Positions 9,356 through 23,384 are shown, numbered from the stretch's first letter. The stretch is 48,609 bases of DNA from Micrococcales bacterium (GCA_009784895.1 WQXJ01000014.1:1-48609), one strand, 5' to 3'. Translations and numbers: made by a program. Notes: generated by a model from the sequence alone, not told the origin.

Positions 9356-9356
<1 letters not shown>

Positions 9357-10405
9357 TGAACAGCCAGCTCGACCTGGCCGTCATAGCCGGGGATGGCATT
9401 GGCCCAGAGGTAGTCGAGCAGGGTCTTAGGGTGTTGCGGGCGGCCTTGGAGCGCGAGTCGCTGGAGGTCAAGGCGACTGAATACGACCTTGGCGCCAAGC
9501 GTTGGCACGCCACTGGCGAGACCCTGCCGGCAGACGAACTGGCCGCCATCGGCAGGCACCAGGCCATCTTGTTGGGCGCCATCGGCGATCCGACTGTGCC
9601 CAGCGGAGTGCTCGAACGCGGTTTGCTGCTCAAGCTGCGCTTCGCCCTTGACCAGTACGTTAACCTGCGGCCGGCTAAGTTGTACAACGGCGTCTCATCG
9701 CCTTTGTACAAGCCCGGCGCAATTGACTTCATGGTTGTACGGGAGGGCACTGAAGGACCGTACGTTGGCAACGGCGGCGCTATCAGGGCCGGCACGGAAC
9801 ACGAGATCGCCACTGAGGTCTCGATCAACACTGCCTTTGGCGCCTTGCGCACTATCGAATACGCCTTCGAGCTGGCGGCCAAACGTGAGCGCCAAAAGCT
9901 CACTTTGGTCCACAAACACAACGTCCTGGTTCACGCCGGACATTTGTGGCAGCGCCTGGTTGAGCAGGTCAGCCCGGCATATCCGCAGGTCACAGTCGAC
10001 TATTTGCATGTCGATGCGGCCACAATTTTCATGGTCAACGACCCGGGCCGCTTCGATGTGATTGTGACAGACAATCTCTTTGGCGACATTTTGACCGACC
10101 TGGCCGGTGCTGTGGTGGGCGGCATTGGTCTGGCGGCCTCCGGCAACATCAACCCCGAGGGTCGCTTCCCCTCAATGTTCGAACCAGTCCACGGTTCGGC
10201 ACCAGATATTGCCGGACAATCTAAAGCCGATCCAACCGCCACCGTCCTGTCAGTTGGTCTGATGCTGCGGCATCTGGGCCATCAAGCTGCGGCGCTGCGG
10301 GTCGAACAGGCCGTTGCGGCCGATCTTGCTTTCCGCGGCACCGCCAGCCGCTCGACTGAAGAAGTTGGCGATTCACTGGTCACCTTGGCCACCTCAGCCC
10401 CCTAG
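9356..10405 (+). CDS. leuB: 3-isopropylmalate dehydrogenase
   Basis: The product has 349 residues. [20 protein letters not shown] is the N-terminal signature of the isocitrate/isopropylmalate dehydrogenase family. [15 protein letters not shown], the Lys-Asn region [18 protein letters not shown] and [13 protein letters not shown] supply substrate and metal contacts. The GNGG form after TEGPY is typical of actinobacterial LeuB rather than isocitrate dehydrogenase. It oxidises and decarboxylates 3-isopropylmalate in leucine synthesis with NAD+ and a divalent metal. The ATG overlaps the ilvC stop (TAATG), implying coupled translation. leuA, leuC and leuD are not in this window. Confidence 0.95.
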
Positions 10406-10416
10406 GAGGAAACGAC

Positions 10417-11523
10417 ATGGCAGAGCTAACTACTGCCGCCGGCCCCAGTTTCGAGCTGGAGCTAACGGCCAAACCTCTGCCCCAAGCCGAGCGAGCGGCT
10501 GTCATGACCAACCCAGGCTTCGGCTCAGTTTTCACCGATCACATGGTCAGGGTCGACTGGGACAGCCAAAGCGGCTGGGGTGGTCACCGGGTGGTAGCGA
10601 ACCAACCGATCTCGCTTTGGCCGGCGGCGGCAGTCCTGCACTACGCCCAAGAGATCTTTGAAGGCCTCAAGGCCTACCGCTGGGATGACGGTTCGATTAG
10701 AACCTTTAGGCCCTGGGCTAACGCCGAACGTTTTGGACGCTCGGCGCAGGCCTTGGCTTTGCCGGTGCTCGATCCGGCCGCATTTGTCGCCTCACTGGAG
10801 GCCTTAGTGCAGGTGGACGGGGAGTGGACACCCAGTGGCGACGGTACCTCGCTGTACTTGAGGCCGTTCATGTTCGCCACCGAGCCGTTTGTTGGAGTCA
10901 GGCCTGCCCGCCAGGTGACCTACCTGCTAATTGCCTCGCCGGTCGGAGCCTATTTTGCCGGCGGCCTGGCGCCGGTTTCGATCTGGATTGACACCGTCCA
11001 CCACCGGGCGGCCAGGGGCGGTACCGGTGCGGCCAAATGCGGCGGCAACTACGCCGCCTCGCTGGTCAGCCAGCAATTGGCAGCGGCCAACGGCTGCGAC
11101 CAGGTGTTGTTCCTAGATGCTGAGACCGAGAGCCACCTCGAAGAGCTGGGTGGCATGAACGTAATGGTGGTGACGGCAGCGGGGCAGGTGTTGACCCCGC
11201 CGCTGGACGGTTGCATTTTGGCGGGCATTACCCGCGAATCGATTATCCAGCTGTGCTGCGAGCGCTCCGTCGAGGTCCAAGAACAAGCCATTCGCCTGGA
11301 CTGGCTGCTCGAGGCGGCGGCCTCAGGCGAGGTCAGTGAGGTCTTTGCCTGTGGCACAGCGGCGGTGATCACGCCGGTGGGCCGCCTGGCCGGTGAAGGC
11401 TTCGAGATCGAAGTTGGCGGCGGCGAGATTGGGCCGCTAACGCTGTCGCTCTACCAAGAACTGACTGACATCCAATACGGCCGGCGCCCAGATACCCGCG
11501 GCTGGACCCACCGCCTGGCCTAG
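10417..11523 (+). CDS. ilvE: Branched-chain amino acid aminotransferase (fold-type IV)
   Basis: The product has 368 residues, with TAGGAGGAAACGAC just before the ATG. It performs the last step of Ile, Leu and Val synthesis, moving an amino group from glutamate to the 2-oxo acid with pyridoxal phosphate. LHYAQEIFEGLKAYRWDDGS, LYLRPFMFATEPFVGV and the PLP-lysine region GGTGAAKCGGNYAASL are diagnostic, as is FLDAETESHLEELGGMNVMV. It is the last gene of the ilv operon; the convergent ATPase gene begins only 11 nt beyond the stop, and no terminator is seen between them. Confidence 0.95.
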   Translation: MAELTTAAGPSFELELTAKPLPQAERAAVMTNPGFGSVFTDHMVRVDWDSQSGWGGHRVVANQPISLWPAAAVLHYAQEIFEGLKAYRWDDGSIRTFRPWANAERFGRSAQALALPVLDPAAFVASLEALVQVDGEWTPSGDGTSLYLRPFMFATEPFVGVRPARQVTYLLIASPVGAYFAGGLAPVSIWIDTVHHRAARGGTGAAKCGGNYAASLVSQQLAAANGCDQVLFLDAETESHLEELGGMNVMVVTAAGQVLTPPLDGCILAGITRESIIQLCCERSVEVQEQAIRLDWLLEAAASGEVSEVFACGTAAVITPVGRLAGEGFEIEVGGGEIGPLTLSLYQELTDIQYGRRPDTRGWTHRLA

Positions 11524-11534
11524 CGTCGTAGCCT

Positions 11535-12815
11535 TCACATTCCGAGAAGTGCTAGTGGAATGACGGCCACACCGTCGGAGCGCCGGTACGCGTGGGCGCC
11601 GGTGTTGATGACAATCTTGTCGGCTAGTCGGTCTCTGATTTGTTGGTGGAGCCAGTGAAGGTGGCGAACGTCGCGATCGGTGACGGTGCCAGCTAGCTTG
11701 ATCTCGATGGCTACGACCCGACGGTCATCACCCTCCACTATGACGTCGACCTCACGTGGCCCGCGTCCATTGTTAACGCGAAGGTGGCTGACGCTTGCAC
11801 GTTGGGCCTCGGCATAGACCCGAACGGATTGGACAACAAGAGACTCGAAGAGCGCGCCCAGCCAGGTGCCCGTGGCGGCCGATGGCGCGGAACCGTCACC
11901 CATGAGCAGGGCGGTCTTTTTGACGCCAACTAGCCGCGCGGCGAGGGCAGGGTCGACCAGGTGGTGTTTTGGTGCGGCTGCCAGCTTTTTCAACGGGTTG
12001 AACGACGGGTGCCAGGCTTGAAGTGGTTCAAGGATGAAGATGCGGCTGAGGTGGTCGCGGTAGGTATCGGCTGTGGTCCGGGTTGGCTTGCTGTCCTCTC
12101 CGGGCGTCGCCGCGTCAAGAATCGTCGAATACGAGGCGGTGCCTGCTGTAGCCGCCGCGTAGGCGGCAAGCCAGGAGCGCAACACGCTTGACCTGCGAAC
12201 TGTGATGCCGTTTTCGGGTAGTTCGTGGTCGGCGATCCGTGCAATGTAGGTGTCAAGCTGGTCGTCTCGGAAATCCTGGTCAGGTAAGCGCCGGATGCCC
12301 GGAAACCCCGAAGCCAAGATCTCATCGGTGTAGTCGCTCAGCGTGAGAGGCGAGGAGCCCTCCACTGGCCGGGCTTTGCCGGCAAGGAGTTCACGCAAAG
12401 ACACCGTCGGGCTGACCAATCCGCGCTCGGCGATTGACATGGGGCGCATCCGAAGGCTCACAATGCGTGCCGCGCCCGAATGGATTCGTACGCCAGGGTC
12501 TGCTGAGGCTGATCCAGCCAGGATGAACCGCCCAGGTGTCCAGTCGGCGTCGACTGCCCGCCTGACGGAGTCCCACACGCTGGGAACTAGCTGCCACTCG
12601 TCGACAAACACAGGCCCGGGGAGCGCTGCAAGTAAATCCTCATTCGCCTGCGCCGCCGCCCGCCGTTCGGTCATCGACAGGTCAACCACGGTTGCCGCCC
12701 GCTGGGACGCTGTTGCGGTCTTGCCCACACCTTTCGCCCCTTCTAGGGCAATAGCCGCATGTCCCTGCAGCCAGCGATCCAGCGTCGTATCGACCGCGCG
12801 CCGCGTGTATCTCAT
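11535..12815 (-). CDS. AAA+ ATPase with DUF4143 C-terminal domain
   Basis: The product has 426 residues. EGAKGVGKTATASQRA is the Walker A motif and PGPVFVDEWQLVPSVW the Walker B/DEWQ region. ILAGSASADPG is sensor-like. The C-terminal half has a nuclease-like fold signature (REVDVIVEGDDRRVVAIEIK), typical of DUF4143. These proteins (AAA_14 plus DUF4143) are common in bacteria but lack an established function; a role in mobile-element or stress biology is guesswork. It stands alone between the ilv operon, with which it converges, and the surface operon. Its base and codon use are less GC-rich at third positions than the neighbouring genes, and its upstream region holds AT-rich tandem repeats, which may point to horizontal gain. 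ATG 12815 is the first start. Confidence 0.85.
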   Translation of the reverse strand: MRYTRRAVDTTLDRWLQGHAAIALEGAKGVGKTATASQRAATVVDLSMTERRAAAQANEDLLAALPGPVFVDEWQLVPSVWDSVRRAVDADWTPGRFILAGSASADPGVRIHSGAARIVSLRMRPMSIAERGLVSPTVSLRELLAGKARPVEGSSPLTLSDYTDEILASGFPGIRRLPDQDFRDDQLDTYIARIADHELPENGITVRRSSVLRSWLAAYAAATAGTASYSTILDAATPGEDSKPTRTTADTYRDHLSRIFILEPLQAWHPSFNPLKKLAAAPKHHLVDPALAARLVGVKKTALLMGDGSAPSAATGTWLGALFESLVVQSVRVYAEAQRASVSHLRVNNGRGPREVDVIVEGDDRRVVAIEIKLAGTVTDRDVRHLHWLHQQIRDRLADKIVINTGAHAYRRSDGVAVIPLALLGM

Positions 12816-12831
12816 GCCTGCAATCTAGCAG

Positions 12832-12909
12832 ATTTGCGCATCCCTACTATGAAGATTTCCGCATTTCTATTAGGAACATTTCCGCATCCCTACTATGAAA
12901 ATTTCCGCA
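12832..12909. repeat. Three and a half tandem 23-bp repeats upstream of the AAA+ ATPase gene
   Basis: Units at 12832-12854, 12855-12877 and 12878-12900, then a partial unit 12901-12909. Units 1 and 3 are nearly identical (ATTTCCGCATCCCTACTATG core); unit 2 is diverged (ATTTCCGCATTTCTATTAGG). They lie 17-94 bp upstream of the ATPase start and are far more AT-rich than the flanks. They could be operator iterons for this gene. Confidence 0.8.
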
Positions 12910-12918
12910 GCCTGAGAC

Positions 12919-13692
12919 TCACGGTTTGTCTTTTCGCCTGTGCCGGGCGGCCAAGAGGAGCGCGCCTATGAGCAGTGCCGCAAGTGCGACGAGTCCCGGC
13001 AGGAGCAGATTGGAGCCGGTAAAAGGGAGAGCTCCGCGGGCGTCCCCGCGGGCTTCTGGGCAATCGCCACCTTGCAGAGTTACTTGTACGTCGTAGGTCA
13101 GGATCTTGGAGGCTTGACCCTGGTTCTTGCCGGTTGTGATGGATTTGGGGAACTCGTAGATCAACGAGAGTTGTTCGGTCTGGTTCTTGCCCAGGGGGAT
13201 GGTGACCAGGTCATACTGGCTGCGCCAGGCCAGGTCTGTGAAGCGGATGGTGCCGCTCTGCCCGGCCAACGTCCAGCGGATTAGCGACATCTGGTCGAAC
13301 GGATCGTCCGCGTGATTAACCGTGCCGCCGGCGACATCGGCCTTGGCGCCTACCAGGCTGACGGTTAGAGTCCCGCTGCAAGGCCCACAGTTTGTGATGC
13401 CTTCCTCGCGGTGGATTACATCACCGGGAACGGCCACCGGTTCCCCGTGGAACGAGCTGGTCGCCTGGCTGTACTCATAGGACCCGGACCAGTGCAGGTG
13501 CATGGTGGGCCCATCCCAGTGGGCGTCCAGCGCGGATGGAACCGGTGTTGGCGGCGGGGCCGCCAACACCGGAACAGGGGCCAGCCAACCCGCACACACC
13601 AATGCCAGCAACAAGGCGCCAAAGGAGGGTATGACGCCCCGCCAGCGCCCGCCTTTGCAGGCGGGCCTGGTCAAGGATCTGTTGCTGGACAC
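12919..13692 (-). CDS. Sortase-anchored surface protein (LPFTG signal)
   Basis: The product has 257 residues from GTG 13692. Residues 1-45 are an N-terminal membrane/signal segment ending LAAPPPTP. The body (about 50-215) has a Cys pair NCGPCSG. The C-terminus reads LPFTGSNLLLPGLVALAALL followed by AARHRRKDKP: LPXTG motif, hydrophobic helix and basic tail. It should be attached to the cell wall by a sortase, which is not encoded here. It is a paralogue of the LAFTG protein at 16080-16874 (shared VPGD-hR, NCGPC-TLTVS, DPF-QMSLI-W). Its first 20 residues (MSSNRSLTRPACKGG, then WRG) closely copy those of the SipW-like peptidase, including the GTGTCCAGCAACA start context. It is the last gene of the operon, 38 nt after its neighbour. 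Confidence 0.85.
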   Translation of the reverse strand: MSSNRSLTRPACKGGRWRGVIPSFGALLLALVCAGWLAPVPVLAAPPPTPVPSALDAHWDGPTMHLHWSGSYEYSQATSSFHGEPVAVPGDVIHREEGITNCGPCSGTLTVSLVGAKADVAGGTVNHADDPFDQMSLIRWTLAGQSGTIRFTDLAWRSQYDLVTIPLGKNQTEQLSLIYEFPKSITTGKNQGQASKILTYDVQVTLQGGDCPEARGDARGALPFTGSNLLLPGLVALAALLIGALLLAARHRRKDKP

Positions 13693-13730
13693 TGGTGTGA
13701 GCTGGGCTGCCTAAGTTCTAGTTCTAGGGT

Positions 13731-14618
13731 CTAGCGGAAGTTGCCAACAAATGGCTCGCGCGTTTGTTCCAGACTGGCCACGACCTGGTCCAGATCCAAA
13801 AGCACCGACTGGGCGTAGTCCCTGTCCTGGTGGTTGCCATCAAAGGTGACGGACATGATGAAGCAGACGTTGAAGTCGGTCCCGGTCAGCGCTGCCCTGT
13901 CAATAACTGGGATCAGTTCGCCACTGGGGTAGACATAGTCGTAACGGGCATCTGGTCCCGAACCTTTTCCGGCTTGGAGCAGAGCCACCGGCTGGCCGGT
14001 GGTGTCAACCGGCACCGGCGTGCCATCAATCAGAAGCCAGAAAACCGGGTCCGTCAGGGCCGGATCGCTCAGGTTAGGCAGGCCGTTGAGCTTCAGTTCA
14101 GCCACCATGTTGTCGCCATCCAAAGCCACCTCGAGCGGCCACACGGCCAAGACCCGGTCACCGGGAACCATGTTCCACTCATCGATGTTGGGAATGCTAT
14201 GCGCCAGGTAGTTGGTTGGGTCAACGCTTGGGTCAACGTTCGAGTCGCTGCCGCCACAAGAAAGCCTCTTGCCGGCCAAACTAGGCTCACTGTTGGCCAA
14301 CAAGAACTTGACTGGCTCGGTCTGGTCGGTCCGGCCACTGTTTTCCGGTGTTGAGGGCGCCGGCTGGCTCGGCGTGTAGTTGCCACCGGCATCGACGGTG
14401 CCGCCAGTGGAGATGTCATAGAAATAGGCGTGGTGAGCGCTGCTGATGTCCAGATTGCCGGCCGTAATGGTGCCGCCGCCAACAGTGGTTGAGGCCGACC
14501 AAAGGGCCCAAGTGCCGCCAGCAGTGAGTATTGCGGCGCCGGCGGCGATGGCGACTAGGCCTTTGATGCGGCGCTGGCGCCGTGCATTGGGGGTTTTCAA
14601 TTCCTTCTTACCTTTCAT
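13731..14618 (-). CDS. Exported protein with SipW-type signal, paralogue 3
   Basis: The product has 295 residues. The N-terminus reads RRQRRIKGLVAIAAGAAIL then TAGGTWALWSAS, the basic plus AGGT-ALWS pattern of SipW-dependent (TasA/camelysin-like) signals. Shared with its two paralogues are ITAGNLDIS, FYDISTGGT, the NMVPGDR-----WPLEVAL-GDN-VAEL block, and a C-terminal LEQTREPFVGNF. It is probably secreted and may form a surface layer or fibre with its paralogues. The ATG at 14618 has no clear ribosome-binding site. GAAAGG lies 10 nt before an in-frame TTG at 14600, a spacing also seen before the starts of the other two paralogues, so translation may begin at 14600. Confidence 0.85.
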   Translation of the reverse strand: MKGKKELKTPNARRQRRIKGLVAIAAGAAILTAGGTWALWSASTTVGGGTITAGNLDISSAHHAYFYDISTGGTVDAGGNYTPSQPAPSTPENSGRTDQTEPVKFLLANSEPSLAGKRLSCGGSDSNVDPSVDPTNYLAHSIPNIDEWNMVPGDRVLAVWPLEVALDGDNMVAELKLNGLPNLSDPALTDPVFWLLIDGTPVPVDTTGQPVALLQAGKGSGPDARYDYVYPSGELIPVIDRAALTGTDFNVCFIMSVTFDGNHQDRDYAQSVLLDLDQVVASLEQTREPFVGNFR

Positions 14619-14729
14619 TTTTGTGTTCAGGGACCAAACTGGCCGCCTGTGTAGGGCACCGAGGGGGTGGGGCGGGTGCCGGTGCCATTTTGGGTTGGGT
14701 GGCGAAGCTTGCAGCGAAGCGCCAATTGG

Positions 14730-14768
14730 GCGTCCGCATTGTGGGACCGGCGCCGATGGCGAGGCCTC
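14730..14768. repeat. Conserved intergenic element, copy A
   Basis: GCGTCCGCATTGTGGGACC, then GGCGCCGATGGCGAGGCCTC. A related copy occurs at 15743-15782 (GCGTCCACATTCTGAGATGG, then CAGCCGATGGCGAGACCCCC). Both lie about 70-170 bp upstream of an exported-protein gene on the minus strand, so they may be a shared regulatory or RNA element. Confidence 0.55.
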
Positions 14769-14803
14769 CAGCGGGGGGAGGAACCGTCATCGGGCGGGGT
14801 TAC

Positions 14804-15673
14804 TTACTGAAAGTGGCCAATCCCCGGGGTCCGTACCTGTGTCAAAGTGACAGGAGAATCCTGGATCTCCAGCAGTTTGGTCAACACCAGGTCCCTGTTC
14901 TGTGTGTCGGGGTCGAAGCGAGCGCCCAGCGCCACACAGACGTTGTATCCGGCAGCGCCCGCGCCCAAGCTGGTCTTGGTCACAACCGGGATTTCCAGAC
15001 CGGTGGCTGGATCAACATCCCTGCTGCCACCTGGTTGGCTGTCAGCCTGGAGCAGGATCGAGTACGAGCCGCCTTGGTCGGTTGGAATCTCGGTTTTGAT
15101 GCCGTCTGTCCAAACAGCAAGCTCTATGTTGTCTAGACCATTTGTGGTGTTGAGGCTAGGTAGACCCAGAGCCAACTCGGCCACCAAGTTGTCACCCTGG
15201 AGGGCCACCTCAAGTGGCCAAACAATGGTCACGCGGTCGCCGGGAACCATATTCCAGGCCTTGATGTCGTCAATCGGATGGCCGTGCCGCCAGATCGGAT
15301 CACGGTCGCCCGGAATGTGACCCCAGTGCGGGCCAGTGCCAAAGCAGGGTAGCTGGTCCTCGTTGACGCGTGATCCGGCCATCCAATGCATCACAGTTTC
15401 GGTCTGGTCCGCCCTGGGAGAGAAGCTTTCCTGGTAGACGTTCCACATGTTGTAGGCGCCGCCTCTTGAGACGTCAAAGAGCTGGGCGTCACCGCCACCC
15501 AGCTCGAGGTTGCCGGCGGCAACGACGCCTCCACCAAGACTGGCCTGATCCGACCAAAGGGCCCAAGTGCCGCCAGCCAGCAGAAGAGCCACACCGGCCG
15601 CGCCCGAGACAAAGCCTTTGACACGCCGTTGGCGCCGAGTATTGGGGGTATTCAATTCCACATGCCTTTCCAT
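14804..15673 (-). CDS. Exported protein with SipW-type signal, paralogue 2
   Basis: The product has 289 residues, with RRQRRVKGFVSGAAGVALL then LAGGTWALWSDQ as its SipW-type signal. The common core is present: VVAAGNLELGGGDAQLFDVS, NMVPGDRVTIVWPLEVAL, GDNLVAELALGLPSL and a C-terminal LTQVRTPGIGHF. It differs from its sisters mainly in the middle (about residues 75-125), which is rich in His and Asp and has one Cys. Export by the SipW-like peptidase and assembly at the cell surface are inferred. ATG 15673 lacks a good ribosome-binding site, while GAAAGG stands 9 nt before an in-frame TTG at 15655, as in paralogue 3. The gene is separated from the LAFTG gene upstream by about 400 bp of repeats. 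Confidence 0.85.
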   Translation of the reverse strand: MERHVELNTPNTRRQRRVKGFVSGAAGVALLLAGGTWALWSDQASLGGGVVAAGNLELGGGDAQLFDVSRGGAYNMWNVYQESFSPRADQTETVMHWMAGSRVNEDQLPCFGTGPHWGHIPGDRDPIWRHGHPIDDIKAWNMVPGDRVTIVWPLEVALQGDNLVAELALGLPSLNTTNGLDNIELAVWTDGIKTEIPTDQGGSYSILLQADSQPGGSRDVDPATGLEIPVVTKTSLGAGAAGYNVCVALGARFDPDTQNRDLVLTKLLEIQDSPVTLTQVRTPGIGHFQ

Positions 15674-15742
15674 CGCGCGGTCAGGGGCGGGTCAACGCCA
15701 TTGTTTGTCAGGCAGCGGCGCTCAGAGCGAAAGTGGGACCAG

Positions 15743-15782
15743 GCGTCCACATTCTGAGATGGCAGCCGATGGCGAGACCCCC
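15743..15782. repeat. Conserved intergenic element, copy B
   Basis: Second copy of the element at 14730-14768; see the sequence comparison there. It begins about 70 bp upstream of the start of paralogue 2. Confidence 0.55.
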
Positions 15783-15803
15783 AACAGGATTGCGCCAAAG
15801 CAC

Positions 15804-16085
15804 AGTGTCGCGGCAAAGAGGCTGGTGGGCGCGCCGCCCGAGTGTCGCGGTTAGGAGGTGGGTTCGCCTTCGCGGCGGGATTGTGCGAAGGCTCGGTGTC
15901 GCGGTAGATGTGTGAATGCTCGGTGTCGCGGCAAAGAGGCTGGTCAGCCATGCCATTCCAGCGAGGCCGAGGTTTGACACAGTGGGGGATTGTGCGAAGG
16001 CTCGACGTCGTGGCAGAAGTGTGTCAATGCTCGGTGTCGCGGCAAAGAGGCTGGTGGGCGCGCCGCTCGAGTGTCGCGGTTAGGC
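15804..16085. repeat. Imperfect tandem repeats in the spacer after the LAFTG gene
   Basis: The core GTGTCGCGG occurs six times (near 15805, 15842, 15896, 15923, 16034 and 16072) with a degenerate seventh near 16006. A longer unit, GTGTCGCGGCAAAGAGGCTG, is present three times (15805, 15923, 16034; spacing 118 and 111 bp), and GGGATTGTGCGAAGGCTCG twice (about 110 bp apart). One copy (15827-15878) resembles the last codons of the LAFTG gene plus its stop, so the array looks like a tandem duplication of that gene's 3' end. No coding sequence is supported here. Confidence 0.75.
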
Positions 16086-16874
16086 GGTCGGCTCGTCTTG
16101 GCGGCGCCGGCGACGGCGGGCGGCTAGGAGCAAGACTCCGGTCAACAGGAGGACCGCGGCGGTCAAGCCGGGGACCATCGGATCAGACCCAGTGAATGCG
16201 AGGGCGCCCTTACCGCCAGGGCCCCCAGGACCGCCGGGGCCCGGGCTGGTCGTGGGACTGATTGTGGGGCCGGAACAGGGTTGGCCCTGAACGACGAATT
16301 GAACGTCATAGAGCAGGATCTGCGACGGGGAACCCAGGTGCTTGCCCGTGGTCATGGCGTAGGGGAAGTCGTAAGCCAGCTTGACCTGCTCGGTGGCGTT
16401 CAGGGCAATTGGGATGGTGGCCAGGTCCATTTGGCCAGCTGCGGCCACATCGGCAAAGCTGATGGTACCGGTCTGCCCGGCCACATCCCAATGGATCAGC
16501 GACATTTCCTCAAACGGGTCACCGACGTGGTTCTTGGTGTTGAAGGCGGTAATGGTGCTGGCGCGAATCATTGACACCGTTAAGGTGGCGTCACATGGTC
16601 CGCAGTTCTGAACGTTCAGCGTGCGATGGACTAGGTCGCCGGGCACGGCGGTGACTTGACCGTGGAAGGCGTCGATCACGACGTACGTACGGCTCATACC
16701 TTGCCAATGCAGACCTTTTGTCGGGCCGTCCCAGTCAGACACGACGATTGAGGGGTTGGGCGTGGCCGCAACCGGTGCCGGTGCGGCCGTCGCAATTAGG
16801 CCGCCGGCTATCGCCAGTCCGGTTGTTAGAGCAACGACTGCCAGGGTGGTCAGTTGGCGGGTGCCGAGGCGCAT
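16080..16874 (-). CDS. Sortase-anchored surface protein (LAFTG signal)
   Basis: The product has 264 residues. Residues 1-37 are a signal peptide (basic start, Leu/Ala core, ATAAPAPVAA). A Ser-Pro-Gly linker (about 200-215) precedes LAFTGSDPMVPGLTAAVLLL and a tail with seven Arg. LAXTG is the motif of class E sortases of high-GC Gram-positives, so a class E enzyme encoded elsewhere is expected. It is a paralogue of the LPFTG protein (12919-13692): both have VPGDLVHR or VPGDVIHR, NCGPC, and a DPFE/DPFDQMSLIHW-like block. A disulfide within NCGPC is possible outside the membrane. Its ATG overlaps the sipW stop (TGATG), so the signal peptidase and this protein are probably made together. Confidence 0.87.
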   Translation of the reverse strand: MRLGTRQLTTLAVVALTTGLAIAGGLIATAAPAPVAATPNPSIVVSDWDGPTKGLHWQGMSRTYVVIDAFHGQVTAVPGDLVHRTLNVQNCGPCDATLTVSMIRASTITAFNTKNHVGDPFEEMSLIHWDVAGQTGTISFADVAAAGQMDLATIPIALNATEQVKLAYDFPYAMTTGKHLGSPSQILLYDVQFVVQGQPCSGPTISPTTSPGPGGPGGPGGKGALAFTGSDPMVPGLTAAVLLLTGVLLLAARRRRRRQDEPTA

Positions 16875-17626
16875 CAGTAGTCTCCTCCGGCTCGATGGCG
16901 CGGGCCAGCGTGTTCCGCGGGGGCGGCCGGAGGCCCTTGACCAACCAAAACCGGTGCCTCTTGTTCGGCATTGGCTTGAGGCCGGGCCTGACCCGGCGAA
17001 GCGGCAGCATCGCCAGGGCCCTGGTCATTGGCGTTGGTTGGGTCCGCACCAGTTGGTGTTGCCTGGTCATCAAGACGGTCACCGCGGCTGTCCTGACGGC
17101 GGCCAAAGAATTGCCAGGCGCCATATCCAATTAGGGCAACGCCAAACAGGACCACGGCGGTTCGTTTCTCGCCGCCGGCCCAGTTGGTCAAATAGCCCAG
17201 TTTGGGCAGTTTGAAAAGCAACTTGCCGCGAATCTGTTTTGGGTAAACTGGCGGGTCATCAGCCCCGTTATTGTCCCCCCTGGTGACGAAGTAGCTGCCG
17301 TCTTTGCCGTCACCATAGCCAATGATCCGGTGAGTGATCAGGCTCGGATCGTCAGGCTCTGGCAAGAAGGTGACAATGTCGCCCACCTTCAGCTTGTCGG
17401 GGTCATTAACGCCGCTGACAATCAATAGATCACCCGGCTTGAGGGTCGGTTCCATGGAACCAGACAAAACCGCCAGGGCCTGGCCGCCGGTGGCCGCCGG
17501 AACGGCGACCACCGTGACGGCAAGAGCACACAGCAATACCAGCAACACTGTGCCGATCACGGCGATGGCACCACGCCAGAACCCGCCCTTTGGGGCGGGT
17601 CTGGCCAGGTCGTTGTTGCTGGACAC
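16874..17626 (-). CDS. sipW: SipW-type (ER-type) signal peptidase I
   Basis: The product has 250 residues from GTG 17626. A membrane segment (about 20-46) precedes LSGSMEPTLKPGDLLIV with the catalytic Ser57. VGDIVTFLPE and ITHRIIGY follow; the residue that is Lys in common bacterial signal peptidases is His99, as in SipW and archaeal/ER enzymes. RGDNN (near 118) supplies the conserved Asp, and GKLLFKLPKLGYL is a typical downstream box. A second membrane segment lies at about 152-170, followed by a long, charged, Pro/Ala-rich tail of roughly 75 residues. It should cleave the unusual signals of the neighbouring exported proteins. It sits centrally in the operon, 24 nt after paralogue 1 and overlapping the LAFTG gene. 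Confidence 0.92.
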   Translation of the reverse strand: MSSNNDLARPAPKGGFWRGAIAVIGTVLLVLLCALAVTVVAVPAATGGQALAVLSGSMEPTLKPGDLLIVSGVNDPDKLKVGDIVTFLPEPDDPSLITHRIIGYGDGKDGSYFVTRGDNNGADDPPVYPKQIRGKLLFKLPKLGYLTNWAGGEKRTAVVLFGVALIGYGAWQFFGRRQDSRGDRLDDQATPTGADPTNANDQGPGDAAASPGQARPQANAEQEAPVLVGQGPPAAPAEHAGPRHRAGGDY

Positions 17627-17650
17627 TGCTGCTACCTGGTAGTTAGAGGA

Positions 17651-18481
17651 TCACCAGAAGTAGTGTCCGATGCCCGGTTCGCGCGTCTGCTTCAGCGTGA
17701 TGTCTACATTTTGCAGCGCACCGAGGATCCGGGTTGCGTGCATCCGGTCCTTGACAGTGTCCCCATCAAAGGTGACAGCCAGGACCACGCAGGCGTTGGC
17801 ATTGCCGGTGATCGTGGTGTTGGTAACGACCGGAATCCCGGGATCGTTTGTCCCATTGGGTTCGTTGTCCGCCTGCAGTAATGCCACCAGCTGGCCGGCA
17901 GCATTAACCGCCGAAGCCTGGTCACCGTCGACCCAGACGTCGAAAGTTGGGTCAGTGAAATACGGGGGCAGGGCGTTTAGGGCGGGCAGGCCGTCGAGCG
18001 TCAGCTCGGCCACCAAGTTGTCACCCTCAAGTGCAACCTCAATTGGCCAAATCGCCACAATCCGGTCGCCCGGAACCATATGCCAATCGGCAATAAAGGG
18101 GATGTCATGAGCGTTTTCCGTGGTGGGGTCATGGAAATACGAGTTGTAGGGGGTCCAGCAGGGCAGCTGGGCCGTGCCGCCAAGCAGGGCCTGAGACAGG
18201 AACCAACGTGGGTGGTGGGTCTGGTCTCCACGAGCTGCCGAGATCCTCGGGGTGTAGACGCCTGTTGTCGGGTCAATTGTGCCGCTGGTGGAAATGTCGA
18301 AGAAGTAGGCATCGCTGGGCGCGCTCAATTCGAGGTTGCCGGCGGTAATGATGCCACCGTTGACGCTGTCCGAGTCCGACCAGAGAGCCCAGGTGCCGCC
18401 GGCCAGGAGAAGAGCAGCGCCGGCCGCGCCGGCGATCAGGCCCTTAACGCGCCGTTGGCGCTTGTTTCGATCGGTTGTCAT
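17651..18481 (-). CDS. Exported protein with SipW-type signal, paralogue 1
   Basis: The product has 276 residues. The signal RQRRVKGLIAGAAGAALL then LAGGTWALWSDSDS is the clearest of the three. The core matches its sisters: ITAGNLELSA, YFFDISTSGTIDPTTGVYTP, HMVPGDRIVAIWPIEVAL, GDNLVAELTLDGLPAL, and C-terminal LKQTREPGIGHY. GAAAGG lies 10 nt before the ATG, which sets this start and supports the TTG alternatives in the other two paralogues. It is directly upstream of sipW, the usual arrangement of a SipW substrate and its peptidase. Function as matrix, fibre or surface-layer protein is inferred from the family (TasA/camelysin-like signals), as the mature part gives no other match I can name. 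Confidence 0.87.
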   Translation of the reverse strand: MTTDRNKRQRRVKGLIAGAAGAALLLAGGTWALWSDSDSVNGGIITAGNLELSAPSDAYFFDISTSGTIDPTTGVYTPRISAARGDQTHHPRWFLSQALLGGTAQLPCWTPYNSYFHDPTTENAHDIPFIADWHMVPGDRIVAIWPIEVALEGDNLVAELTLDGLPALNALPPYFTDPTFDVWVDGDQASAVNAAGQLVALLQADNEPNGTNDPGIPVVTNTTITGNANACVVLAVTFDGDTVKDRMHATRILGALQNVDITLKQTREPGIGHYFW

Positions 18482-18552
18482 TTGAGTTGTGCCTTTCTGG
18501 GTTATGTGCCAGGGGCCGCACCGGCCACCTGCATTTCATACGGGTGGCCGGG

Positions 18553-19227
18553 TTAGCCCGGCCGGATGAGCTCATGGCTCACCAAGATTTTCGTGTCGAC
18601 GGAGCCGGCGAGGGGGGTAATCGCGGGCCAATCCGCCCGGGCCTGCTGTGGTCCCAAAGGTGTGCCAACCTCGACCGAGGCGCTGGCGCCAAAACCGGCT
18701 GCCCGGTTGGGGTCTTTGGTGATCTCCAGGCAGTATTCGAAGCTGTCCCGCCGATCCGTCCATGAGGTGGAGACCAGGGGCACATTGGTGGTGGCTTCGG
18801 GTACCCCACTGTCCTTGCAGTATCCGCCGCGCGTTGTCCCGTTCGACGGGTACCAACCCAGGATCACGCCGGTGCCATTGAAAGCAGTGTCATCAATGGT
18901 GAATTGCAGGCCGACGTTGCCATCGGCCCTACCCCACAGTGTCACCAGCATGTAAAACGGCACACCTGTGTCTTTGACGCCGTCCAATTCCCCGACGGTC
19001 ACTACAAACCCAATTGGGTCGGCCTTGTTGGTGTTATCCACCACTTCATATGGCGCCAAGCCGTCGTATCGGGAACCGGAAAACCCCACCTGGCCCTGGC
19101 CAACGCTGGCGCCTTCCAGTTGTGTGTCGTCCTGCCACAGACCTGAGGCCAGCTGCGAAACACCCAGGGTGCCACCAAGCAACAGGGCTGCTACGGCGGC
19201 CCGAGCTGCCCACCTGCGACCGGTCAT
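18553..19227 (-). CDS. Small exported protein with SipW-like signal
   Basis: The product has 224 residues from ATG 19227, which overlaps the preceding stop as ATGA; a start at 19236 would add three residues. RRWAARAAVAALLLGGTL then GVSQLASGLWQDD is a signal resembling the SipW type (GGT...LW). The mature part has GQGQVGFSGSRYDGL, VVTVGELDGVKDTGVP and two Cys (YCKDSG and YCLEI) that may pair outside the cell. I do not recognise a named family. Its place between two other signal-bearing proteins suggests that it is a minor subunit or assembly factor of the same structure. It is followed by paralogue 1 after a 71-nt gap. Confidence 0.78.
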   Translation of the reverse strand: MTGRRWAARAAVAALLLGGTLGVSQLASGLWQDDTQLEGASVGQGQVGFSGSRYDGLAPYEVVDNTNKADPIGFVVTVGELDGVKDTGVPFYMLVTLWGRADGNVGLQFTIDDTAFNGTGVILGWYPSNGTTRGGYCKDSGVPEATTNVPLVSTSWTDRRDSFEYCLEITKDPNRAAGFGASASVEVGTPLGPQQARADWPAITPLAGSVDTKILVSHELIRPG

Positions 19228-20330
19228 GGTGCCCACCCCGCACCGGAACGCACCTGCTTGACGGTGACGGTGAGATCGGGCAAAAGCTTGGAATCCTGGG
19301 CGATAGGTAGCCGTGCCCTGGGGTCGACGTAATCAAAGCCGGTTTGGCTGTCCCAGGAAACAGTCACCACCAAATGCCATTCCAGATCCGTTGGCACGGA
19401 CCGATCAGCGGAGGATGGCCCGCGGGCGTCGGGGAAAACATGCTGAGCGGTGCCAGAGGTCCCGATCGGCTGTTCGAAGACGGTACCCGCCGCGTTCAAC
19501 GGCACCGTAACCTCGTCGAGTCCGCCACCGGCAGTCCAGCGGTAGGTCTTGACCTGGTAGGTGGCACTGACACCAGGGGGGAGCTGCGATGAATCCCAAC
19601 CGGGCTGCCAGGTGAGTTCCAGGTCAACATCAAGGTTGTCGCCGTCGATGTAGGTTTCGACGCAATAGTCGATCTCCAGGGAGTCGCCTGGACGGTCAGG
19701 ATTGTTGAGCCCACCCTGGGCCAAGAAGGTTTTCAGGCTGGGCAAATCCGGACCCTCTCTAAGGAGGCTCGCGTCTTTCTGGCCTAGATCTGCAGTAGTT
19801 TCCTGCCACGTCACGGGATCGTTGGTACAGGCCCGTGCTGCCAGGTCACCGGCCTGGATGGTGAAGCCATTGGCGTGAGTGTCATTGTTCCACAGGGCGC
19901 TGGTGGTGTAACCACCAGCCAGGGCGGTCACCAGCAGACAGGCGGCTCCTAGGCCCGCGGCCAGCCGGCCGGGACGGCGCTGGAGTGTGCGGCGATGTCG
20001 AAAGGCGGCGGCTTGCTGGATTTGGGCATCATGCCGGGTGGCGATGGTCAGTCCGCCCCAGGGGTCGCCTTGTTCTGGGACCGGCGGCGGTTGCCAGGTC
20101 AAGTTTGGTGCCGCCACCGGGGGCGGTGGGGTGGATACCACGGTCGCGGTGGGGACGGGGACCGAGCTGAGGTCATGGTCCTGGGCTGGCCTGGGCAGGA
20201 CTGGTGCCGCCGGTTTGATCGCTCTGGGTTTGGCTGGGCGAATTGTGGTGGAGCGGGGCCTGGTGCGCCAGGCTGGGGCCGCCAGAGCGACCATGCGGCG
20301 TGAGGCGTTTGCGCCCTTGGCCCCGGTCAC
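19224..20330 (-). CDS. Exported or membrane-anchored protein with long cytoplasmic Pro-rich N-terminus
   Basis: The product has 368 residues. Residues 1-120 are hydrophilic, basic and Pro-rich (PTATVVSTPPPPVAAPNLTW) with no signal. Then RRPGRLAAGLGAACLLVTAL and AGGYTTSALWNND form a SipW-like signal placed unusually deep at about 117-150. The rest (about 155-368) is exported and has a Cys pair (ACTNDP, DYCVET). The shared theme IDGDNLDVDLELTWQPG resembles the GDNLVAEL block of the three paralogues. No recognised family. The ATG overlaps the upstream stop (ATGA) and its own stop overlaps the next ATG, so it is translationally coupled on both sides. A later start is possible, but the tight overlap supports 20330. 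Confidence 0.72.
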   Translation of the reverse strand: MTGAKGANASRRMVALAAPAWRTRPRSTTIRPAKPRAIKPAAPVLPRPAQDHDLSSVPVPTATVVSTPPPPVAAPNLTWQPPPVPEQGDPWGGLTIATRHDAQIQQAAAFRHRRTLQRRPGRLAAGLGAACLLVTALAGGYTTSALWNNDTHANGFTIQAGDLAARACTNDPVTWQETTADLGQKDASLLREGPDLPSLKTFLAQGGLNNPDRPGDSLEIDYCVETYIDGDNLDVDLELTWQPGWDSSQLPPGVSATYQVKTYRWTAGGGLDEVTVPLNAAGTVFEQPIGTSGTAQHVFPDARGPSSADRSVPTDLEWHLVVTVSWDSQTGFDYVDPRARLPIAQDSKLLPDLTVTVKQVRSGAGWAP

Positions 20331-21346
20331 TGGGCGTTGCTTTCGACTGGTTGACTGGCCGTTGGGCTGAGGCAGGAGGCGGTGTAGCCATGCGGCACCA
20401 CGTCGTTGGCCAGCACCGGCACCGACGGGAATTCAGCAGTAGCCGTGGCCTTCAGCCACTTTGGCAGGCCATAGGCCCCCGCCAACTCCTTGGCGTAGTC
20501 CGGGCCTGAGTCCTGGTCCAACGCTGGGCGACATTGCCACATTGGACCGCCGGTGGTCGGATTGACCACATTGACCGTGCCACCTTGGAATTGCAGCGCA
20601 CCCCACTGGCCAGTGTTGGTAATGGTGTAGCGCCAAACCACTTTGGCATTGCGCGGCAGCCCGTTTACTTGGTCGGGATTGTCAGAGTTTTGCAGCAGAC
20701 GTCCCCGGGCTACGCATTCGGCAGGTTTGGCCTGTCCCGGCGGGCAGAGGTAACCGTCAACCTCAAGGTTAACCATCCGCTGGCCATAGCCGCCGCCGGT
20801 GGCTGGCACGGTGGCCAAAGCGGCGGCGTAGAGCTCTTCAATGGCTTGGCAGGTTTGACGCGCCCCAGAGCTGTCGGCACCCATCCAGGCGGAATCGACC
20901 GCTTGGCGCAGCTCGACCTGGGTGGACTGGGAGGTTGACCGGGCCAGGACTTCACCCATGGCCTCGATGTTGAACAAAACCCTGTCTAGGTCGCCTTGGC
21001 TAGTCACCGAATCGCAGCCAAGACCACTGGGGGGCATCTGGAAGGGCTGGTCAACCAACCCACCGACACCAGCCGAACCAAATTGGTTGTTGGTATTGGG
21101 TGTTACTGCACTTGGCGGGGGCATCCGGTTGGTGCTGTTGCTGGGTTTGGGCGCCGGCAATTCGGGCGGAGCGGGAGCGGAATTGTCGACAGGACCAACG
21201 GACTGGCCGACGGCGTCAGTGCCGTCCTGGTCGCCAGCATCGCCCATGGCCATGCCGGACTGAACCAGCAAACCCACTGCCGCCAGAACGGCAATGGCTC
21301 CAAACTTTGAGGCGGTCCAGGGGAACCGCCCCATTTCCTTGCCCAT
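20327..21346 (-). CDS. Secreted protein, first gene of the surface operon
   Basis: The product has 339 residues from ATG 21346. Residues 12-35 (SKFGAIAVLAAVGLLVQSG, then MAMGDAG) form an ordinary signal peptide. A Pro/Asn-rich linker (about 45-95) follows, then a folded region with several Cys (GLGCDSV, RQTCQAI, YLCPPGQAKPAEC, MWQCRP, ASCLSP). The segment VVWRYTITNTGQWGALQFQG resembles a beta-sandwich. I cannot name a family. A longer ORF from 21427 would begin with residues unlike a signal, and GAGG lies just before 21346; another Met four codons on (21334) has AAGG close by. It is the promoter-proximal gene and overlaps the next by ATGA. Confidence 0.75.
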   Translation of the reverse strand: MGKEMGRFPWTASKFGAIAVLAAVGLLVQSGMAMGDAGDQDGTDAVGQSVGPVDNSAPAPPELPAPKPSNSTNRMPPPSAVTPNTNNQFGSAGVGGLVDQPFQMPPSGLGCDSVTSQGDLDRVLFNIEAMGEVLARSTSQSTQVELRQAVDSAWMGADSSGARQTCQAIEELYAAALATVPATGGGYGQRMVNLEVDGYLCPPGQAKPAECVARGRLLQNSDNPDQVNGLPRNAKVVWRYTITNTGQWGALQFQGGTVNVVNPTTGGPMWQCRPALDQDSGPDYAKELAGAYGLPKWLKATATAEFPSVPVLANDVVPHGYTASCLSPTASQPVESNAQ

Positions 21347-21770: not shown

Positions 21771-23384
21771 ATGAGCCAGTTCCACGTCTACGACACCACT
21801 TTGCGCGACGGCGCCCAGCAAGAAGGGATGAATTTGTCCGTGGCGGACAAACTCGAGATTGCCGCGCTGGTTGACCGCTTGGGCGTGGGTTACATCGAGG
21901 GCGGCTGGCCCGGCGCCATTCCCAAGGACACTGAGTTCTTTGCCCGGGCCAACAAAGAACTGCGCTTGGCCAACGCCCAAATGGCGGCTTTTGGCGCCAC
22001 CCGTAAGGCCGGCGGCACCGCCGCCTCAGACCCACAGGTCAGGGCCCTACTTGAAGCCGAGACCCCGGTTGTCACGCTGGTAGCCAAGTCAGATATCCGC
22101 CACGTTGAGCGGGCCCTGAAGACCACGCCAGAAGAGAACCTGGCCATGATCACCGACACGGTGACCTACCTCAAGGCCCAGGACCGGACGGTTTTCCTGG
22201 ACTGCGAGCACTACTTTGACGGCTACCGTTTTGACCCGGACTACGCCCTGGCCTGCGTCGACGCGGCCACCCAGGCCGGCGCCGATGTAGTGGTGTTATG
22301 TGACACCAATGGTGGCATGTTGCCGCCCTGGATCAGTCAGGTGGTGGCCGCCACCGGCGCCAATTCCGGCGCCAAGCTGGGCATTCACTGTCACAATGAC
22401 ACTGGCTGCGCTGTCGCCAACTCACTAGCGGCCGTTGAGGCCGGCGCCATGCACGTCCAGGGCACCATCAACGGCTACGGTGAGCGGACCGGCAACGCCA
22501 ACCTGGCCGCGGTCATACCCAACTTGATCTTGAAAACCGGGGTAGACGCCATCGGGCAAGCCAAGCTGACGGAGCTGACCGGCATCTCCAATGCTGTCTC
22601 CGAAATCACCAACATCGCACCGCAGGCCAGGGCGCCCTATGTGGGCTATTCGGCCTTCGCTCACAAGGCCGGGCTGCACGCCTCGGCCATCCGAGTGGAC
22701 CCGGATATGTACCAGCATTGCGATCCGCAGCTGGTCGGCAACGATATGCGCATGCTGGTCACCGAAATGGCCGGGCGGGCCTCGGTTGAGCTCAAGGGCC
22801 GCGAGCTGGGTTTCGAACTGGCCGGCAACAACGAGGTCCTGACCCAGGTGACCAACCAGGTCAAGGACCTAGAAGCGCGCGGATACACCTTCGACGCGGC
22901 CGACGCCTCCTTCGAACTGCTGCTGCGCCGCGCCCTGGGGTTGCTGCCCAGCTATTTCGCGGTCGAGTCGTGGCGGACCATTTCTGAGGCCGCTGGCGCC
23001 ATCGGTGTGCCGCCCGATGCCGGCTCCCGCGCTTCGGCCGCAGGCGTCAGCGAGGCCACGGTCAAGTTGCATGCCGGGGATAGGCGGATTGTTGCCACCG
23101 GCGAAGGCAACGGCCCAGTCAACGCTTTAGATGCGGCCCTGAGGTTGGCCCTGATTGAGGTCTACCCGGAGCTGGCCGGGATCGAGCTGGTTGACTACAA
23201 GGTCAGGATTCTGGACACCTCTCGCGGCACCGATGCGGTCACCCGGGTTTTGATCGAATCAACTGACGGCAGCCGGGTTTGGCGGACGGTGGGGGTGGGC
23301 CCCAACATCATCGAAGCCTCTTGGGAGGCCTTGACCGACTCGGTGGTCTATGGCCTGGTCCAAAGCGGGGTCGAGGTACGCTAA
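21771..23384 (+). CDS. cimA: (R)-citramalate synthase
   Basis: The product has 537 residues. YDTTLRDGAQQEGMNLSVAD is the catalytic N-terminus of the isopropylmalate/citramalate synthase family, YIEGGWPGAIPKDTEFF is specific to the CimA branch, and GIHCHNDTGCAVANSLAAV holds the metal-binding His residues. The C-terminal part (about 390-537) is the LeuA allosteric dimer domain. It condenses pyruvate and acetyl-CoA to citramalate, giving 2-oxobutyrate for isoleucine without threonine deaminase. Its products feed the ilvBNCE enzymes encoded 10 kb away, and both units carry attenuators. No strong Shine-Dalgarno sequence is seen; AAGGA lies 9 nt before the ATG. Isopropylmalate synthase is a less likely identity given the GGWPGA motif. 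Confidence 0.9.
   Translation: MSQFHVYDTTLRDGAQQEGMNLSVADKLEIAALVDRLGVGYIEGGWPGAIPKDTEFFARANKELRLANAQMAAFGATRKAGGTAASDPQVRALLEAETPVVTLVAKSDIRHVERALKTTPEENLAMITDTVTYLKAQDRTVFLDCEHYFDGYRFDPDYALACVDAATQAGADVVVLCDTNGGMLPPWISQVVAATGANSGAKLGIHCHNDTGCAVANSLAAVEAGAMHVQGTINGYGERTGNANLAAVIPNLILKTGVDAIGQAKLTELTGISNAVSEITNIAPQARAPYVGYSAFAHKAGLHASAIRVDPDMYQHCDPQLVGNDMRMLVTEMAGRASVELKGRELGFELAGNNEVLTQVTNQVKDLEARGYTFDAADASFELLLRRALGLLPSYFAVESWRTISEAAGAIGVPPDAGSRASAAGVSEATVKLHAGDRRIVATGEGNGPVNALDAALRLALIEVYPELAGIELVDYKVRILDTSRGTDAVTRVLIESTDGSRVWRTVGVGPNIIEASWEALTDSVVYGLVQSGVEVR

Follow-up and report, generated by a model that had tools for sequence, protein, structure and literature searches.

A conserved SipW signal peptidase cassette of Micrococcales, enlarged by duplication, as a candidate for a wall-anchored surface fibre

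Nine surface genes at positions 12919-21346 of the window, which is the whole 48,609-nucleotide stretch of Micrococcales DNA analysed here, represent one copy of a conserved five-gene cassette, X-Y-T-SipW-L, that has been enlarged by duplication. The five-gene cassette is the ancestral unit, and T2, T3 and L2 are extra copies. The products of this locally expanded cassette probably make a TasA-type surface fibre, a reading to which a probability of about 0.6 is assigned. The earlier note on this DNA had proposed a surface fibre or layer. A fibre is still the best reading, although as an inference, and the wall proteins L are possibly its TasA-like base subunits.

Gene content and organisation of the locus

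All nine open reading frames lie on the minus strand, and each was found to be present by ORF analysis. In the order of transcription, they encode a secreted protein of 339 amino acids with an ordinary signal peptide (first gene, 20327-21346), X (368 aa, 19224-20330), Y (about 224 aa, 18553-19227), T1 (276 aa, 17651-18481), which is a SipW-substrate paralogue and the presumed fibre subunit, the SipW-type Ser/His signal peptidase (250 aa, 16874-17626) and the LAFTG wall protein L1 (264 aa, 16080-16874). These are followed by the T paralogues T2 (289 aa, 14804-15673) and T3 (295 aa, 13731-14618) and the LPFTG wall protein L2 (257 aa, 12919-13692). For gene Y, the ATG at 19227 is a more likely start than the GTG at 19236 chosen by the ORF tool.

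Three junctions are real overlaps: four bases between the first gene and X (GTGA) and, as described earlier, four between X and Y (ATGA) and one between SipW and L1 (TGATG). The remaining junctions are gaps of 71 bp (Y/T1), 24 bp (T1/SipW), 406 bp (L1/T2), 185 bp (T2/T3) and 38 bp (T3/L2). Judged by the junction overlaps on the one hand and the gaps of 406 and 185 bp on the other, genes one to six resemble a single operon, whereas T2, T3 and L2 may be transcribed from a promoter of their own. The proposed nine-gene operon is therefore plausible for its first six genes, but a single transcript for all nine is not borne out. A scan of the locus for terminators and promoters gave no clear excess over chance.

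Conservation and distribution of the cassette

A second cassette in the same genome (contig C35, L048:2426-7073) has the order X-Y-T-SipW-L on one strand in unexpanded form, with its own Ser/His peptidase and an LPFTG protein, and the same order is found in a relative (G009, L046). The gene set thus recurs in other actinobacteria when gene order is compared. Within the order, the T profile has matches in 35 of 198 genomes, and the L profile matches 19 distinct loci at full length. By our own count, 15 of these 19 loci have a T gene no more than about 5 kb away on the same contig, and the four L loci without a nearby T could be due to contig breaks. Outside the order T is rare, with 11 of 296 genomes in a phylum-wide sample, mostly as weak matches to the signal region. 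The named carriers include Georgenia, Oceanitalea, Leucobacter, Cellulomonas and Cryobacterium, together with several metagenome-assembled genomes labelled as Bifidobacteriaceae or Micrococcales, whose isolate codes we take to point to termite guts.

No description of an actinobacterial system combining SipW, TasA and LxxTG proteins was found in the open-access papers searched. The cassette, the anchored L family with its possible TasA fold and the shortened adhesin domain described below appear to be undescribed in the open-access literature searched, while the SipW signal is already known and is recognised by NCBI models. The exact gene set, of which the earlier note knew no described actinobacterial system, is not a system of its own: the nine genes are a conserved cassette with local duplications.

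Duplication history

T1 to T3 are monophyletic (support 100/99). Since they form one clade and L1 and L2 are paralogues, the extra T and L copies arose within this lineage. A further trace of duplication is kept at the start of L2: 114 bp at 13705-13592 match the start of sipW at 17639-17526 with 72 % DNA identity (E 1e-11), and the start of L2 compared with the SipW protein gives a score of 112, where the highest of 2000 shuffles reached 47. Judged from these alignments, a copy of the 5' end of sipW, comprising its leader, start and first membrane segment (13592-13705, minus strand), has been fused to L2 and now makes up its beginning. In the simplest reading, a T-sipW-L block was duplicated and the second sipW was mostly lost, and its remaining membrane segment serves L2 as a signal sequence. 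The 406-bp gap between L1 and T2 consists largely of imperfect direct repeats of 86-90 % identity, which were detected by self-BLAST and extend into the very end of L1 (15674-16110, minus strand).

The dedicated signal peptidase and its cleavage site

The peptidase had been described as a Ser/His enzyme with the motifs SGSMEP and THR, and this description holds: it reaches 100.9 bits with TIGR02228, above the curated cut-off of 51.85, and the catalytic Ser and His lie in these two motifs. It stays below the cut-off of the Bacillus-only SipW equivalog NF046067 (87 vs 190 bits). Three ordinary signal peptidases are encoded elsewhere in the genome, two on contig C48 and one on C29. In one C48 enzyme, examined over its whole length, Lys (LIKRVIG) takes the place of the His of the window enzyme (ITHRIIG). 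Because these three ordinary enzymes are present, the window SipW is regarded as a spare, dedicated enzyme, and this result, like the recurrence of the gene set in other actinobacteria and the presence of a class E sortase, speaks for the fibre system proposed in the earlier note.

The predicted cut site of T1 to T3, AGGTWA|LWSD or similar (the bar marks the cut), matches that of Bacillus subtilis TasA, for which peptides indicate GGTWA|AF (PMC10269814). In an alignment of 23 T proteins, the Ala at P1 and the Trp at P2' are invariant. For Escherichia coli LepB, Trp at P2 slows cutting, and aromatic P2' residues, which occur in none of 143 verified sites, go along with poor cleavage (PMC10269814). 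X and Y have SipW-type signals as well, A|LWNND in X, where it follows a 144-residue N-terminal extension, and G|LWQDD in Y, whereas the signals of the first gene product and of the L proteins are of the ordinary kind. T, X and Y share a conserved strand right after the cleavage site, the LW-motif counts, which contain some false anchors, being indicative only. In TasA, the donor strand comprises residues 28-38, immediately past the cleavage site (PMC9674648), and by homology the T residues just past the cut would occupy its position.

Family membership and predicted fold of the T proteins

T1, T2 and T3 score 73.5, 64.6 and 61.5 bits with TIGR04089 (exp_by_SipW_III), all above its cut-off of 60, and all three also exceed the cut-off of TIGR04088 (T1 with 32.4 bits). 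T2 and T3 are 46-51 % identical to T1. The proposal of three paralogues with SipW-type signals and a GDNLVAEL core is thus well founded, with the core written more precisely as GDN[LM]VAEL. In contrast, T1 reaches 15.4 bits with the TasA family model NF046066, for which the cut-off is 450, and this match covers the signal and strand region only. We do not assign T to the TasA family in the strict sense.

A predicted model of T1 (pLDDT 76, pTM 0.73) gave no Foldseek hit at E<=0.001. In a second look with VIA, the best among the matches listed were CanA of the Pyrodictium cannulae (Z 6.2) and several pilins, and the TasA fibre 8aur had a Z of 3.8; monomeric TasA structures did not appear among the listed matches. 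A PDB sequence search with the T and L profiles returned no meaningful match, and a comparison of the two profiles revealed no sequence homology outside the signal region.

Wall proteins and sortases

L1 and L2 are about 51-53 % identical, and both C-termini consist of an LxxTG motif, a membrane stretch and a basic tail, which agrees with the earlier description of two paralogous wall-anchored proteins with LAFTG and LPFTG motifs. With TIGR01167 (cut-off 15.9), the L proteins gave 17.4 and 16.7 bits in the genome scan and 13.3 and 12.4 bits in the whole-protein scan. The model of L1 has a mean pLDDT of 71.6, with most of the ectodomain core above 80. Its best Foldseek match is TasA 5of2 (E 6.7e-4), which VIA aligned with Z 8.7 over 139 residues, but unrelated beta-sandwiches tie with it in Z, several such chains equalling the value for TasA over about 100 residues. 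Another TasA entry reached Z 8.2 over 143 residues in VIA. The model is suggestive of a TasA-like fold of the L ectodomain, and since L may carry such a domain, it is suggested that L proteins are base subunits of the fibre.

The search for sortases elsewhere in the genome, which is 96 % complete, revealed three sortase-domain proteins: a complete class E sortase above its cut-off on contig C25, a class-F-like sortase below its cut-off on C17, and a membrane protein without the catalytic Cys or His on C79 (L006:1177-2268). The last is probably a non-catalytic sortase homologue. Its gene adjoins a gene for a phosphate-type ABC ATPase. None of the three is a class C sortase by NCBIfam cut-off. 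The L proteins are probably anchored to the wall by one or both of the remaining sortases, the class E and the class-F-like enzyme. Class E sortases prefer LAXTG (PMC5148588). The second motif residue varies freely between species in the L family, where LA, LP, LQ, LE, LS and LV occur, and the LA/LP difference is a weak sign of two pathways. The idea of two kinds of wall anchoring is not supported, since the search gave a single complete class E sortase above its cut-off and no class C enzyme; both wall proteins belong to one paralogous family. The C-termini of T1 to T3, X and Y have neither an LxxTG motif nor a membrane segment. Sortase polymerisation is unlikely because of this and the lack of a class C enzyme among the three proteins.

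X, Y and the first gene

Two further proteins with similar signals had been noticed, and these are X and Y, which score 38.8 and 15.9 bits with TIGR04089, both below the cut-off of 60. The X family is kept in the cassette, including the C35 copy of the same genome, and a profile search with the Y family found members in C35 and in relatives. Y may be an accessory subunit. An N-terminal extension before the SipW signal of X, about 80-260 residues long, also occurs in L036, L037, L038, L050 and L051; that of the window protein is rich in Pro and Arg, and the start codons of X proteins are uncertain.

The first gene does encode an ordinary secreted protein, as had been stated, and it has no Pfam or NCBIfam match. 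The gene that precedes T in free-living relatives codes for a protein of 620-800 aa, mostly with vWA and SpaA-type domains and with a DUF7507 domain at the end. The C-terminal region of the window protein weakly resembles this Ig-like (DUF7507-type) end, but hhalign against the C-termini of the relatives covers 19 columns only (prob 54), and for this reason homology to the vWA/SpaA first genes is not claimed. In all seven relatives' proteins with a clear DUF7507 match (L026, L028, L029, L031, L032, L050 and L051; for example L026:5649-7874, L028:5391-7706, L031:5591-7732 and L032:5744-7921), the match reaches no further than position 76-78 of 105, a few residues short of the end of the protein. 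An Ig-like domain without its last part is what a donor-strand acceptor would be expected to look like.

Proposed assembly and alternative explanations

In the proposed mechanism, the dedicated Ser/His peptidase would cut T and X at A|LW and Y at G|LW. The freed N-terminal strand, LWxDxxxxxGGxI in T, would then enter the beta-sandwich of a neighbouring subunit by donor-strand exchange, so that T subunits could polymerise without a sortase. The L proteins, with a TasA-like domain and an LxxTG tail, would be exported by their ordinary signals and fixed to the wall by a sortase, for which the class E enzyme is the best candidate, and would form the base of the fibre. X and Y may be minor subunits that start or cap it, and duplication would have provided three T subunits and two bases. 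The fibre reading is favoured by the match of the cleavage site to that of TasA, by TasA as the first-ranked hit of the L ectodomain model and by the lack of a pilus-type sortase, and the vWA/SpaA adhesin-like protein encoded by the first gene of the relatives would also fit a fibre. Against it stand the T1 model, which has no clear TasA match, the tie between TasA and unrelated beta-sandwiches for L1, and the lack of sequence homology between T and L outside the signal region. A more specific form is possible, but we hold it to be doubtful: a hybrid Gram-positive fibre with a SipW-processed donor-strand shaft and a sortase-anchored base of TasA fold. In free-living relatives, the tip of such a fibre would be formed by a vWA/SpaA adhesin, and the first shaft subunit would supply the final strands that are missing from the last Ig-like domain of the adhesin.

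Alternatively, the SipW substrates could act as single proteins, for instance binding proteins, that are secreted or associated with the wall and form no polymers, and the L proteins could be separate surface antigens sharing the operon. The weak fold match of T would fit this explanation, as would the nearest Pfam family being a sub-threshold camelysin match in the signal region. We consider it unlikely given the conserved strand that T, X and Y share just past the cut, the conserved T-SipW-L linkage, the TasA-like L model and the adhesin-like first gene in relatives. In addition, the studied SipW systems that are cited here all yield fibres or polymers (PMC9674648, PMC4292775, PMC7395162). 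A surface enzyme system with the T proteins as camelysin-type proteases is very improbable. A weak match to PF12389 (Camelysin metallo-endopeptidase) occurs in 18 of the 23 T proteins, but in T1 it is confined to the signal and strand (residues 13-55) with a score of 17, below the Pfam cut-off of 22.5, and CalY of Bacillus cereus, the camelysin, is itself a fibre subunit (PMC13082335, PMC4292775). This explanation was rejected.

The sorting motifs raise two further alternatives. A distinction between LAFTG and LPFTG proteins, sorted by two different sortases into two distinct surface structures, is suggested by motifs that differ at the residue read differently by class A and E sortases (PMC5148588) and by the class-F-like sortase on C17. 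It is quite improbable and was rejected, as the second motif residue drifts across the L family, the C35 cassette uses LPFTG, the third sortase-domain protein lacks the catalytic Cys and there is a single complete class E sortase. A classical sortase-polymerised pilus with SipW-processed pilins would account for the LPFTG and LAFTG proteins and for the vWA and SpaA domains in the first gene of the relatives, which occur in pilus tip proteins. Such a pilus is very improbable: it was rejected because the genome has no class C sortase and the presumed shaft subunits T have no sorting signal, which is found in L alone. Moreover, polymerisation of the SipW client BsaA of Clostridium perfringens does not require the sortase encoded nearby (PMC7395162).

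Relation to known systems

The tapA-sipW-tasA system of Bacillus subtilis (PMC9674648, PMC10151520) resembles the TasA-type fibre proposed here in its dedicated SipW encoded in the operon, its GGTWA| cleavage pattern, and its combination of a fibre subunit with a minor initiating subunit, and TasA ranks first for the window L model. The two differ in that no sortase-anchored member is described in Bacillus, whereas the window L proteins are probably wall-anchored, and in that the window T proteins fail the TasA model and the window has three T and two L proteins in addition to X and Y. In the sipW-tasA-calY-CapP system of Bacillus cereus (PMC13082335, PMC4292775), SipW is likewise accompanied by two TasA paralogues, whose co-assembly needs no sortase, and by an accessory protein in the wall. 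This CapP is, however, chaperone-like and described as sortase-independent, there is no LxxTG base, and no X/Y pair is described in the passages considered. In the sipW-bsaA operon of Clostridium perfringens (PMC7395162), which also encodes further secreted proteins, a beta-rich filament protein needs SipW both to be exported and to polymerise, but the neighbouring sortase is dispensable, BsaA is not tightly bound to the wall and no LxxTG base is described. T1 to T3 are members by score of the NCBIfam families TIGR04089 and TIGR04088, and such proteins are already labelled by NCBI as alternate-signal exports; the families cover signal and export only and say nothing of X, Y or L partners, of anchoring or of a fibre.

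TasA-type donor-strand fibres have been studied mainly in Bacillus, where their attachment to the cell is unclear. If the proposed reading is true, a cassette whose base is sortase-anchored and possibly TasA-like would answer directly, and in a testable way, how such fibres are attached, and it would join two routes of surface assembly that have so far been treated as separate. The presence of the cassette in culturable genera such as Georgenia, Leucobacter and Cellulomonas makes this testable.

Genomic neighbourhood

By eye, branched-chain amino-acid genes appear to flank the surface genes (9356-11523 and 21771-23384), with leuB and ilvE to one side and a citramalate-synthase-like gene to the other, as if the surface genes had been inserted between them. 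Directly downstream of L2, at 11535-12815, lies a gene that by eye appears to encode an AAA+ ATPase of the DUF4143 type, and a short repeated motif, ATGCGGAAATnTTC, is located between this ATPase-like gene and L2 at 12819-12920.
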